Below are positions 15,604-20,757 of a DNA stretch of 64,000 bases, piece by piece. Within the stretch, counting starts at the first letter, position 1; every line of letters starts with the position of its first letter. This DNA is from Halomarina rubra (GTDB lineage Archaea > Halobacteriota > Halobacteria > Halobacteriales > Haloarculaceae). A model generated the notes under the pieces. The model made no database searches. It was not told where the DNA came from and saw nothing but the letters and a program-made list of their open reading frames with translations. The stretch lies in assembly GCF_023699475.1 (NCBI RefSeq), contig NZ_JALXFV010000002.1, positions 62,001 to 126,000 of the forward strand, given 5' to 3'. The translations under genes and the position numbers were made by a program.

Positions 15604-16847
15604 CGCATCCCTCCGGAGAACACGTCCATATCCGGTGCGTTCGGAATCTCCCGACTGGCGGTCTCCTCGATGACCGATTCGAGGTCCTTGTCGCCGCGCC
15701 CGGAGACACAGACGACGACGCTGTCGCCCAACTGCTCGGACGTGGCCTGTTCGAGCCACGCGACGGCGTGGGCCGTCTCCAGCGCCGGGATGATACCCTC
15801 GGTCTGGGAGAGGCGGTGGAACCCTTCGAGCGCCGCGTCGTCGTCGACGGTGACGGGCGTGACTCGCCCCTCGTCGACGAGGTACGCGAGTTCGGGGCCG
15901 ACGCCGGCGTAGTCCAGCCCCGAGGAGACGCTGTGCGATTCCACTATCTGCCCGTCGCGGTCCTGGAGGAGCTTCGTGCGTGCGCCGTGGAGCACGCCCT
16001 CGGTGCCCGTCGACAGCGACGCGGAGTTGGGTGCGACGCCCTCCTCCTCGTCGACGGCGAGGGAACTGCCGCCGGCCTCGACGGCGTAGAGGTCGACCGA
16101 CTCGTCGGAGACGAACCGGGAGAACGCGCCCATCGTGTTCGACCCGCCGCCCGCACAGGCGACGACGCTGTCCGGCAGACCGCCGACCTGGTCGTCGAAC
16201 TGCCTTCGGGCCTCCTCTGAAATCACGGACTGGAACTCCCGGACCATCGTCGGGAACGGGTGTGGTCCGACCACGGAGCCGATGACGTAGTGGGTCGTCT
16301 CGACGGTCGTCGCCCAGTCGCGCATCGTCTCGCTGATGGCCTCCTTGAGGGTACCGCGACCGGTCGTGACGGGGTTGACCGCCGCACCGTTGAGTCGCAT
16401 CCGAAACACGTTCGGGCGCTGGCGGTTGATGTCGCGTTCGCCCATGTATATCTCACAGGGCACGTCGAGGTGGGCCGCAGCCATCGCCGTCGCCGTGCCG
16501 TGCTGTCCCGCACCGGTCTCGGCGACGATGCGCTCTTTGCCCATGTACTTCGCCAGCAACACCTGCCCGAGGGCGTTGTTGAGTTTGTGCGCGCCGCCGT
16601 GGAGCAGGTCCTCGCGTTTGAGGAACAGGTCGGTGTCGTAGCGCTCGCTGAGGCGGTCGGCGCGCTGGAGCGGGGTCGGTCGGCCGCCGAAGTCCCGCAA
16701 CCGCTCGCGGAACTCGTCGACGAACCCGTCCTCGTTCTCCAGCACGTACCGCCGGTAGGCGTCGTCCAGCTCCTCGATAGCCGGCATCAGCGCCTCCGGA
16801 ACGTACTGTCCACCGTACTCGCCGAACTTGCTCGTGTCGCTGCTCAT
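15600..16847 (-). CDS. trpB: Tryptophan synthase beta subunit
   Basis: PLP enzyme of 415 residues that joins indole and serine. Seen: N-terminal [20 protein letters not shown] Lys88 in [13 protein letters not shown], catalytic Glu in [13 protein letters not shown], phosphate-binding [12 protein letters not shown] and the C-terminal [11 protein letters not shown]. This is the TrpB1 form that partners TrpA. It overlaps trpC upstream and trpA downstream by four bases each (16844-16847 and 15600-15603), a tightly coupled trpCBA unit. Confidence 0.96.
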
Positions 16848-17617
16848 GAGTCGTCCATTGGTGTCGTCAGTCGTCTCGTGTTCGCTTCGACGCTACCGCC
16901 GCCGCGGACGATGCCCGTCCCGACGAGCAGGCCGTCCGCGCCGGCCCGTCGCATCCGGGCGGCGTCGGCCGGGTCCGCGATACCGCTCTCGGCGATCAGC
17001 GTCACGTCGTCCGGAACGTGGGGCGCGACGCTCTCGAACGTTTCTAAGTTCACCACGAGGTTCGCGAGGTCACGGTTGTTCACGCCGACGACGTCCGCAC
17101 CCGCGTCGAGCGCTCGCTCCAACTCCTCGCGGTCGTGGACCTCGACGAGCACCTGAAAGCCGCGCTCGCGGGCCGCCGCGAGCATCCCTTCGAGGTCGTC
17201 GAGGAACCGGGCGATGAGCAACACGACGTCGGCCTCGGCGGCGTCGAGCTGTGCCTCCTCCAGCAGGAAGTCCTTCCGGAGGACCGGGACGTCGACCGCC
17301 TCGCGGACGCGGTCGAGCGTCTCGACGCTCCCGCCGAAGTGTTCGGGTTCGGTCAGCACCGACAGCGCCGCAGCGCCGCCGGCGACCATCCCGCGTGCCA
17401 GTTCGACCGGGTCACGCTCGTCGGTGCCCTCGGTCGTCGGACTCGTCGGCTTCACCTCGGCGACGACCGGGACGCGACCGGCTGCCTCGGCGCGCGCGAG
17501 CGCCGACGGGAGGTCCCGGGGCGTCACGGCGACGCGCTCGGCCGGCGTGGGCCGCGCGCGGGCCGCCTCGAGAATCGAGGCGACCGCGGGGGCCAGCTCT
17601 CCTTGACTGTCCATCAT
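16844..17617 (-). CDS. trpC: Indole-3-glycerol phosphate synthase
   Basis: Fourth step of tryptophan synthesis, a 257-residue TIM barrel. Seen: [14 protein letters not shown] with the catalytic Lys, [41 protein letters not shown] and LIAESGI. It starts the trpCBA unit; two ATG codons in a row (17617, 17614) are both possible starts. A CCTTACGT box stands 24-31 bases upstream, giving a nearly leaderless message. trpD, trpF and the feedback-type trpE are not in the window. Confidence 0.95.
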
Positions 17618-17640
17618 TGTACTTCGATGGACTAGTCTGT

Positions 17641-17648
17641 ACGTAAGG
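17641..17648 (-). promoter_or_regulatory. TATA-like promoter of trpCBA
   Basis: Reads CCTTACGT on the minus strand, 24-31 bases before the trpC start. The CTAG at 17632-17635, between box and start, is one of the few CTAG sites I noticed in the window. Confidence 0.5.
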
Positions 17649-17691
17649 CTTGCGGGTCGTGGTGCAACGTGTCACGCGACCTGCCCGGTCG

Positions 17692-17699
17692 CTTTTGCC
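17692..17699 (+). promoter_or_regulatory. TATA-like promoter of the lipase-like gene
   Basis: CTTTTGCC, 23-30 bases before the ATG at 17722. Confidence 0.45.
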
Positions 17700-17721
17700 G
17701 ACCGACGATGTAGACGGAGCG

Positions 17722-18336
17722 ATGGGAACGGGGGAGACCACACATCCGGTGTTGCTCGTGCACGGCTACGGCGACGCGGGCGCGACGCCCTGGTGGCGGA
17801 CGCTCGAAGGGCGGTTCCACAACCGGGGATACCCGGACGACGCCGTCGAGACGCTGTCGTTCGGGGTGCCGGGGCTGACGCTCGGGTCACCGCGGCGGTA
17901 CGCCGAGCGCATCGGCGACCGCGTCGAGACGCTTCGCGACCGGTACGACTCGCGGGTCGACATCGTCGCGCACTCGATGGGCGGCCTCGGCGCGCGCTGG
18001 TACGTCGAACGCGGCGGCGGCGCGGCGTTCGTCGACGACCTCGTCACGCTCGGGACGCCCCACCAGGGGACGACGCTGGCGTACACCCAGCCGACACCCG
18101 GCGGGCGGGCGATGACGCCCGACAGCGACTTCCTGACCGTGCTCAACGGTCGGCGACCGCCCCGTGGCGTCGACTACACCGCCGTCGGGAGCGACGACGA
18201 CGGACTCGTCAGCCCCGACCGCGCCTCGCTCCCGTTCGAGGCGCGCAACGTCCGGAACGTCCACGTCAGCGGCCCGGGCCACATGGCGCTCGTCTCGGAC
18301 GCTGGCGTCTTCTCGCAGTACGCGGACGCGCTGTGA
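17722..18336 (+). CDS. Alpha/beta-hydrolase, lipase/acyltransferase type
   Basis: 204 residues from the ATG at 17722, chosen because it follows the promoter at the right distance. Seen: oxyanion-hole motif VLLVHGYGDAG, nucleophile elbow AHSMGGLGARW (G-X-S-X-G form), TLGTPHQGT, a likely catalytic Asp in DDGLVSPDRA and the final His in GPGHMALVSD. This order matches the EstA/LipA group of esterases. No signal peptide is visible, so it appears cytoplasmic. It is divergent from trpCBA. Confidence 0.85.
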   Translation: MGTGETTHPVLLVHGYGDAGATPWWRTLEGRFHNRGYPDDAVETLSFGVPGLTLGSPRRYAERIGDRVETLRDRYDSRVDIVAHSMGGLGARWYVERGGGAAFVDDLVTLGTPHQGTTLAYTQPTPGGRAMTPDSDFLTVLNGRRPPRGVDYTAVGSDDDGLVSPDRASLPFEARNVRNVHVSGPGHMALVSDAGVFSQYADAL

Positions 18337-18420: not shown

Positions 18421-18882
18421 ATGGACGACGTGGCGGGCATCTACGCCCGGGAGTTCGAGTATCTCGACCGCTACGTGCAGGTCGGCATCGCCAGCGGCAA
18501 GGTCATCTCCCTGACGTTCCCCCGGACGCCCGAGGACGACGCCGAGACCGACCACCCGCTGCTCGACCGCATCGAGGCGTATCTGGAGGGTGACGACGAA
18601 TCGTTCGACGACGTCGAACTCGCGTTGACGGTCCCGACCGACCAGCGCGAGGTGTTGCTCGCGGTCCGCAAGATACCGTTCCGCAAGCAGGTGACCGTCG
18701 AGCGACTCGTCCGGAACGTCGCCGGCCTCGACGCCGACGACGAGGCCGACCACGACACCGTCCGGACCGCACTCGCGAACAACCCCATCCCCCTACTCGT
18801 CCCCGACCACCGCGTCCGCGACGGACCGAGCGGCGCGCCACCCGAGGTCGAACAGCGCCTCCGGAGCATCGAAGAGCTGTAG
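18421..18882 (+). CDS. MGMT-family protein without the catalytic cysteine
   Basis: A 153-residue protein whose C-terminal half (residues 75-140) aligns with O6-alkylguanine-DNA alkyltransferase: REVLLAVRKIPFRKQVTVER, then NPIPLLVPDHRVR. In active enzymes the latter reads PCHR; here it is P128-D129-H130-R131, so the methyl-accepting Cys is Asp. The usual GxxxxY of the recognition helix is also altered. Alkyltransferase-like proteins with Trp or Ala at this site bind damaged DNA without repairing it; Asp is unlike the forms I know. It precedes the rhomboid and endonuclease V genes. Confidence 0.8.
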   Translation: MDDVAGIYAREFEYLDRYVQVGIASGKVISLTFPRTPEDDAETDHPLLDRIEAYLEGDDESFDDVELALTVPTDQREVLLAVRKIPFRKQVTVERLVRNVAGLDADDEADHDTVRTALANNPIPLLVPDHRVRDGPSGAPPEVEQRLRSIEEL

Positions 18883-19019: not shown

Positions 19020-19925
19020 ATGGCACTGTGTGACGAGTGTGGGCGGCAAGAGAGCATGCCGTACAACTGTCGGCACTGCGGCAACACCTTCTGCTCCGAG
19101 CACCGCCTCCCGGAGTCCCACGACTGTCCGGGCCTCCAGAACTGGGGCGACCCGAGCGGCGTCTTCGACGGCGGGTTCGACGACAGCGTGAACCAGCAGC
19201 GCTCGTCGGGTGGCGCGCTCTCCGGTCTGACCGCGACGAACGGCCCGCTGAGCTACTTCCGCGGGAACATGTCCTACGTGTTCCTCGCGCTGATGCTGGT
19301 GACGTTCGTCGCCCAGCAGATCGTCATCAACGTGTTCAGCCCCCAGCTACACCAGGACCTGTTCGTCCTGACGTCGACCGAACCGCTCGCGGTGTGGACG
19401 TGGTTCACCTCCATCTTCGCTCACAGCCCCGTCGGCTTCACTCACATCCTGTTCAACGGCATCGCGCTGTACTTCTTCGGCCCGGTCGTCGAACGACAGA
19501 TCGGTTCGAAGGCGTTCACAGCGCTGTTCCTCGTCAGCGGCGCGGTCGCCGGCCTCGGTCAGATCGGCCTGACCATCGCGCTCAACGAACCCGCCAGCGG
19601 TGTCCTCGGTGCGAGCGGGGCCATCATGGCCATCATGGGCGTGCTGACCGTCCTCAACCCGGACATGCGGGTACTGCTGTACTTCTTCATCCCCGTGCCC
19701 ATCTGGGTGCTGACGTTCGGCTACGCCGGTCTCTCGCTGGTCGGCGTCCTCTCGCCGGGGACGAACGTTCTCGGCGGCAACGTCGCGCACATGGCCCACC
19801 TCTCCGGCCTCGTCATCGGCCTGCTGTACGGCGAGTACGTCAAGCGGCAGGGCGTCCGCGCCCCCGGACAGGTCCAGTTCGGTGGCGGCGGTGGCGGCAT
19901 GGGCGGCGGCCGGCGTCGGTTCTAA
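19020..19925 (+). CDS. Rhomboid intramembrane protease with N-terminal AN1 zinc finger
   Basis: 301 residues. Residues 4-36 form a complete AN1 finger: CDEC, then NCRHC, FCSEH and ESHDC, giving all eight Cys/His ligands. A linker of about 45 residues leads to six membrane segments. The rhomboid dyad is seen as Ser199 in LGASGAIMAIMG and His260 in AHMAHLSGLVIG, and HILFN (142-146) supplies the conserved His/Asn. The tail is a glycine-rich repeat. It cleaves membrane proteins within the bilayer; the cytosolic AN1 finger could recruit substrates or a ubiquitin-like (SAMP) partner, which is inference. Confidence 0.92.
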   Translation: MALCDECGRQESMPYNCRHCGNTFCSEHRLPESHDCPGLQNWGDPSGVFDGGFDDSVNQQRSSGGALSGLTATNGPLSYFRGNMSYVFLALMLVTFVAQQIVINVFSPQLHQDLFVLTSTEPLAVWTWFTSIFAHSPVGFTHILFNGIALYFFGPVVERQIGSKAFTALFLVSGAVAGLGQIGLTIALNEPASGVLGASGAIMAIMGVLTVLNPDMRVLLYFFIPVPIWVLTFGYAGLSLVGVLSPGTNVLGGNVAHMAHLSGLVIGLLYGEYVKRQGVRAPGQVQFGGGGGGMGGGRRRF

Positions 19926-19950
19926 CACCCCGTCGCTCCTCTCTCGGGTC

Positions 19951-20757
19951 GTGAACGTCGCCCGTCCCGAGTTCCGTCCGGACCCCGAGTCGACCCGCGA
20001 GGAGATGGAAGCCCTCCAGCACGACATCGCCGCGAGCGCCCGCTTCGACGACGACCACGGTTTCGACCTCGACACACTCGGGACCGGCGACGCCGCTCCC
20101 TCACAGACGACGCTCGACTCACCGACCGAGTCCGACTCACCGGTCCGTCCCGACCCACTGCTCGTCGCCGGCGTCGACCAGGCGTTCCTCGACGACCGGG
20201 CCGTGAGCGCCGTCGTCGTCCTCCGGGACGGGGAGGTGGTCGAACGCACTCACGCCGTCTCGCCGCTCACCTTCCCGTACGTCCCCGGTCTGCTGTCGTT
20301 TCGCGAGGGCGGTCCCATCCTCGACGCGTTCGAGCGTCTCGACACCACTCCCGACGTCGTGCTGTTCGACGGGTCGGGGCGCATCCACTACCGGCAGGCG
20401 GGGTTGGCGACGCACATGGGCGTCGCGCTGGACGTGCCCGCGCTGGGCGTCGCCAAGAGCCTGCTCTGTGGGACCCCGGTCGCCGACACCGACCACTTGG
20501 AGGCGGGAGAGTCGGTCCCCATCGAGGCGAACGACCGGATGGACTGCGAGGCGGGGACGCTCGTCGGTCACGCCGTCCAGACCCGGCAGTTCGACTCCTA
20601 CCGTATCAACCCGGTGTACGTCTCGCCGGGCCACCGCGTGAGCGCGGCGACCGCTCGCGACGTGGTGTTGGGCTGTCGCGGGGGGTACAAACTGCCCGAA
20701 CCGACGCGGCTGGCCGACGCCTACGCCGACGAGGTGAAAGAGGATGTGCGGGAGTGA
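19951..20757 (+). CDS. nfi: Endonuclease V
   Basis: Nicks DNA (or RNA) next to deoxyinosine. Start taken as GTG at 19951, which gives 268 residues; the frame runs back to 19882 inside the rhomboid gene. Seen: catalytic Asp in VAGVDQAFLDD, FPYVPGLLSFREGGP with the catalytic Glu, the second Asp in VVLFDGSGRIHYRQAGLATH and LGVAKSLLCG. The family motif G.IHPR is changed to IHYR. An acidic region of about 40 residues (about residues 35-65) separates the N-terminal helix from the core. Gap to the rhomboid gene is only 25 bases, so the two are probably co-transcribed. Confidence 0.9.
   Translation: MNVARPEFRPDPESTREEMEALQHDIAASARFDDDHGFDLDTLGTGDAAPSQTTLDSPTESDSPVRPDPLLVAGVDQAFLDDRAVSAVVVLRDGEVVERTHAVSPLTFPYVPGLLSFREGGPILDAFERLDTTPDVVLFDGSGRIHYRQAGLATHMGVALDVPALGVAKSLLCGTPVADTDHLEAGESVPIEANDRMDCEAGTLVGHAVQTRQFDSYRINPVYVSPGHRVSAATARDVVLGCRGGYKLPEPTRLADAYADEVKEDVRE

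Follow-up and report, generated by a model that had tools for sequence, protein, structure and literature searches.

A haloarchaea-wide MGMT-fold protein family without the active-site cysteine, possibly reused as a binding protein

What might an MGMT-fold protein do in the cell when it has no cysteine to which an alkyl group could be transferred? The question is raised by an ORF in a stretch of 64,000 nucleotides from Halomarina rubra (contig NZ_JALXFV010000002.1), which we refer to as the window. The ORF (18421..18882, + strand) starts with ATG, has its stop codon within that span and encodes a 153-aa protein whose ortholog family is haloarchaea-wide. The PCHR of MGMT is replaced by P128-D129-H130-R131 (18802..18813, + strand), with the Asp129 codon GAC at 18805-18807, and the active-site motif of the protein reads NPIPLLVPDHRVRDGP. 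The first-pass annotation of this DNA had named a second cysteine taking over as the finding that would overturn its view of the site; this is ruled out, as the window protein has zero cysteines over its full 153 aa, a sequence that also precludes the transfer of alkyl groups to cysteine.

In a single-sequence search the homology to MGMT is weak though real. Pfam PF01035 (DNA_binding_1) matches the window protein at E 8.7e-6 with a borderline 25.9 bits against a curated cut-off of 27, and the score is 27.1 when the ORF is counted with its in-frame neighbours; the H. volcanii genome, used as a control, matches PF01035 above cut-off. A sequence search of the PDB returned SNAP-tag/MGMT chains at E 0.0047 and above, the best of which, 3kzz_A, is itself a Cys-to-Ala form. 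In 6y8p_A (E 0.0063) the query NPIPLLVPDHRV lies opposite NPVPILIPCHRV, placing Asp129 exactly at the Cys, and the original identification of an MGMT-like protein with P-D-H-R is borne out by these matches. Using an hhalign profile of 131 crown orthologs (102 of them retained by the program), we found a match to 19 archaeal MGMTs at 99.68% probability and E 1.3e-25; its 136 columns take in the N-domain. With 20 haloarchaeal Cys-MGMTs as the target the same profile gave 97.5% and E 5.5e-12 over just 83 columns, mostly in the C-domain, with the N-domain largely outside the aligned columns. Judged by these alignments, the two-domain MGMT fold with an HTH C-domain (PF01035) is present in the window protein, its N-terminal domain corresponding to residues 5-71 (18433..18633, + strand) and its helix-turn-helix region, located by alignment, to residues 93-121 (18697..18783, + strand). 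An AlphaFold model built with 8 sequences had a mean pLDDT of 46.9, too poor for pocket inspection.

The family is found throughout the haloarchaea. A protein search of a class sample covering 77 genera gave matches in 292 of 292 haloarchaeal genomes, the weakest best match having an E of 2.6e-16, and an alignment search of a 392-genome phylum sample matched all 81 haloarchaeal genomes at E 2.1e-36 or better. Matches from outside the haloarchaea were weaker (best E 3e-17), and all 19 that were fetched have PCHR. The plasmids searched gave no match, and one scan of viral contigs turned up no relative. H. rubra also encodes a Cys-type MGMT with PCHR on a different contig. A second strong PF01035 match of this type occurs in 39 of 116 haloarchaeal genomes, and PCHR is present in all 21 of the sequences read from those 39; the other 77 showed no PF01035 match with a score of the Cys-MGMT class. 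Because a Cys-type MGMT is present in 39/116 genomes only, the Cys-less family is evidently retained with or without one. Having lost the cysteine and most of its means of holding DNA, it probably serves a job other than alkyl repair. As a separate observation, these counts suggest that most haloarchaea may be without direct O6-alkylguanine repair. In a term find, 'ogt', 'MGMT' and 'methylguanine' were absent from the text searched of a review of H. volcanii repair (PMC7776575), and the titles, abstracts and passages of the literature searched contained no description of a haloarchaeal Cys-less MGMT-like family.

To count residues, the 153 family loci were reduced to 134 distinct sequences and aligned. 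At this site, where the first-pass annotation had proposed an alignment of haloarchaeal MGMT-family proteins as a check, Asp occurs in 124 of the 134 distinct orthologs, followed by Ser (5), Thr (2), Cys (2) and Gly (1); Trp occurs in none of the 134. Asp129 is therefore not a chance or sequencing event. Asn121, His130 and Glu151, which correspond to the hinge Asn and to the His and Glu of the MGMT Cys relay, are each invariant (134/134), and 110 of the 131 crown sequences have no Cys at all. In a tree made by a quick method with column 129 blanked, made up of 47 out of 134 family rows (every one of the 10 non-Asp rows and 37 chosen others) together with 21 canonical and 19 archaeal rows, the whole family forms a single clade (SH-aLRT 99), separate from that of the haloarchaeal Cys-MGMTs (SH-aLRT 100). 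Three deep-branching members, with PCHR in G021 and G285 and PSHR in G217, form the first branch of the family (SH-aLRT 88 for the trio) as sister to the crown (SH-aLRT 98), and site 129 needs at least 7 state changes over the tree. Since two deep-branching lineages still have PCHR, the cysteine was lost inside the family, and site 129 later settled on Asp in most lineages, never being strictly required.

If the chemistry has gone, is the grip on DNA retained? The passages of PMC10779285 on AGTs attribute their DNA work to the HTH, an Arg finger (R128), a Tyr (Y114) and the PCHR site, and describe the N-domain as the less conserved half of the protein. The flipping Tyr (human Tyr114) is present in none of the 131 crown sequences; it is present in the three deep-branching members (3/3), in all 21 haloarchaeal and in all 19 archaeal Cys-MGMTs. 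The window protein has Val93 at this position and Arg115 where MGMT has Gly. This Gly-to-Arg change, found in 114 of the 131 crown sequences, lies on the recognition helix and might be a new DNA contact, and the active-site loop of the family carries Pro136 and Pro140 at MGMT Gly positions. Arg stands at the finger position in 29 of the 131 crown sequences, and finger and Tyr occur together in none of them. We had considered the Arg finger as a deciding feature, and this is weakened: because the haloarchaeal Cys-MGMTs have mostly lost the finger too, its loss is no proof of lost DNA work. In those Cys-MGMTs (L011, L151-L170) the position is Val or Ile in 20/21 and Arg in 1/21, and base flipping by these proteins may depart from the textbook mode. 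The recognition helix is acidic in the window protein, and its mean net charge is -1.61 over the 134 family rows compared to +0.76 in the 21 haloarchaeal and +2.74 in the 19 other archaeal Cys-MGMTs; haloarchaeal proteins are acidic in general, and the in-clade Cys-MGMT control reduces this confounding of the helix charge and does not remove it. The suggestion that the protein is a purely structural DNA reader is weakened by the acidic helix and by the loss of the Tyr in 131/131 crown sequences.

The two domains also differ from those of MGMTs in how they are conserved. Once the three deep-branching rows had been removed from the crown set and the odd row L170 from the canonical set, mean pairwise identity in the N- and C-domain was 0.56 vs 0.58 in the 131 crown sequences (ratio 0.97), 0.41 and 0.70 in 20 haloarchaeal Cys-MGMTs (ratio 0.59) and 0.27 and 0.55 in 19 other archaeal Cys-MGMTs (ratio 0.49). 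This parity between the N- and C-domain is, of all the signs that the working surface of the protein has moved, the strongest.

We put at about one half the probability that the family is a two-domain MGMT pseudoenzyme, non-catalytic and reused as a ligand- or partner-binding protein. The likeness to MGMT/Ogt/AGT (PF01035) lies in the fold, matched by profile over both domains, the Asn hinge, P-x-H-R and the C-terminal Glu; the differences are the absence of the Cys nucleophile and of the flipping Tyr, Arg in place of Gly at 115, Pro136/Pro140 and the acidic HTH. The basic DNA face and the Tyr are gone, and the pocket neighbours Asn121, His130 and Glu151 and the N-domain are tightly kept. We infer that the protein would neither transfer alkyl groups nor read lesions in the manner of MGMT or an ATL. 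It would instead be a stable binding protein with a housekeeping or regulatory role, in which the N-domain and the old inter-domain pocket hold either a partner protein or a small ligand; Asp129 would be a preferred yet replaceable pocket residue and no catalyst. So read, the family shows cleanly how an enzyme can become a binder, and the intermediates are still alive: PCHR in G021 and G285, PSHR in G217, Ser or Gly at residue 129 in family f9, and Asp in most of the family. Both domains of the protein have been retained although the chemistry and the canonical hold on DNA were given up, and the N-domain is newly constrained. Furthermore, the annotation 'MGMT family' in haloarchaea need not mean alkyl repair, as 77/116 genomes showed no Cys-type MGMT.

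The first alternative is a divergent ATL, which would bind O6-alkylguanine in DNA without repairing it and pass the lesion to UvrABC. The comparison with ATLs had already been drawn from the window sequence, and it stands insofar as the protein is a Cys-less, non-transferring MGMT relative. ATLs such as S. pombe Atl1 and the E. coli ATL share the Cys-less P-x-H-R, the family has lost its Cys while the remaining pocket is kept, and a lesion reader would suit the many haloarchaea in which no Cys-type MGMT was matched. ATLs are Cys-less and linked to NER according to the passages of PMC10779285 that deal with them, and a passage of PMC3950489 reports them in 'ancestral archaea'. The comparison breaks down at the known features of the group. 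As described in the same part of PMC10779285, ATLs have no N-domain and retain the Arg finger together with the Tyr, whereas the haloarchaeal family has a conserved N-domain, no Tyr (0/131), mostly no Arg finger (29/131, and both in 0/131) and an acidic recognition helix. At the site itself ATLs mostly have Trp, according to those passages, and the haloarchaeal family has Asp (or Ser, Thr, Gly). ATL-style lesion reading fails on the features that define an ATL, and we consider it unlikely. Those passages of PMC10779285 treat Cys-less MGMT relatives solely as ATLs, a picture from which the haloarchaeal family departs.

A second alternative comes from the neighbourhood, which we compared in 47 loci (L001-L007 and 40 hand-picked for genus spread, with flanks of about 5-7 kb). 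The usual divergent neighbour is trpC, encoding indole-3-glycerol phosphate synthase, in the window at 16844..17617 on the - strand (Pfam IGPS, E 9.2e-68). It lies beside the family gene in 36 of the 47 loci, covering 8 of the 11 family codes in the comparison, and trpB, trpA and a DeoC-type aldolase usually come after it. An ORF for an alpha/beta hydrolase (lipase-like) sits between trpC and the family gene at 17650-18336 and is also found in L001, L002 and L078. Within the trpC promoter, cross-genome comparison revealed a conserved near-palindrome of the TGTACA type (17618..17654, - strand), which across crown haloarchaea reads about CGCAAGnCTTATGTACAnnnnnGTnCRTTARTGTACAnTAATG and which resembles the TGTACA TRP box of TrpY. 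The family protein could regulate transcription of the divergent trpCBA operon, its HTH reading sequence and its pocket sensing an aromatic metabolite. The linkage and the conserved element fit this, as does a lone TGTACA hexamer at the unlinked locus L116, where it stands 24 nt upstream of the gene; the H. salinarum operon is described in a passage of PMC4162585 as induced without aromatic amino acids.

The element belongs to trpC, however. It stays there in all 9 crown genomes in which trpC is away from the family gene, and none of 11 unlinked loci has the full element ahead of the family gene; we have dropped it as the binding site of the family protein on these grounds. It is absent from the three deep-branching genomes, and we found no regulator for it. 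A scan of the H. rubra genome with a 15-mer version of the operator gave 21 matches at one mismatch or fewer vs 5 for a control; one of them is the trpC site, and the ORFs beside 9 of the 20 others included no trp or aro gene by eye. The opposite flank is conserved too, with ORF clusters for a CAAX-type protease (28 of the 47 loci), LonB (28), an NMNAT-like protein (23) and a SAM hydroxide adenosyltransferase (17), so the trp linkage may simply reflect synteny, with trpC belonging to a larger conserved block. An acidic recognition helix also speaks against a sequence reader, and haloarchaeal TrpY homologs, mentioned in a passage of PMC6737238, exist as candidates for the regulator. A role in trp regulation therefore seems to us quite improbable.

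Catalysis by Asp129 fares worse. An Asp129-His130-Glu151 hydrolytic relay, with Asp as nucleophile and an alkyl or acyl ester intermediate, might act on free nucleobases or small esters; Asp in 124/134 sequences, the invariant His130 and Glu151, and Ser or Thr in 7 of the 10 non-Asp members are in keeping with this. Pfam also reports a sub-threshold match to a hydrolase, Peptidase_C15 (E 0.068, 13.6 bits, cut-off 22.7), but it is at chance level and spans residues 70-115, away from the Asp-His site. One lineage (L067) has Gly at residue 129 with the remaining pocket unchanged, and the residue changes state at least 7 times on the tree. Asp, Ser and Thr seldom exchange as nucleophiles. A catalytic or nuclease-type Asp is unlikely because Ser, Thr and Gly occur at site 129, and we give the relay very little credence. 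The more specific idea that Cys-to-Asp made a suicide alkyltransferase reusable is also highly improbable; in it, Asp129 activated by His130/Glu151 would form an alkyl or acyl ester that is then hydrolysed, with free modified bases or small aromatics and not duplex DNA as substrate. Haloalkane dehalogenases, which form an ester on Asp and then hydrolyse it, provide the analogue.

The least credible reading is a nuclease in which Asp129 is a metal ligand acting with Endonuclease V, as the first-pass annotation had hinted with a 'nuclease-like' Asp: the Endonuclease V ORF (19882..20757, + strand; Pfam E 2e-55; true start perhaps further in) lies 1 kb downstream in the window and a part of PMC10779285 describes archaeal AGT-EndoV and ATL-EndoV fusions, but the residue is Ser, Thr or Gly in several lineages, no nuclease family is among the Pfam, NCBIfam and PDB matches of the window protein, and EndoV is nearby in 4/47 loci only. 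The AN1-rhomboid and EndoV genes are indeed present as first described. Their association with the family gene is local (4 of 47 loci) and we dropped them as functional partners; the archaeal fusions resemble the window in joining an MGMT-like gene with EndoV and differ from it in that here the genes are separate.

Returning to the putative binding protein, its gene tends to carry an upstream signal of its own. A promoter-like TT[CG]AA element occurs within 50 nt upstream of the family ATG in 32 of the 47 loci, at -28 to -31 in 31 of them; after single-base shuffling the mean is 1.7 of 47. Upstream of the window gene there is no exact TT[CG]AA. In the three deepest-branching haloarchaeal genomes examined (G021, G217 and G285; motif scan, loci L110, L117 and L076) the TBP gene immediately precedes the family gene, as confirmed by Pfam for G021 and G217 and read from sequence for G285, and in G021 and G217 the stop and start of the two genes overlap.
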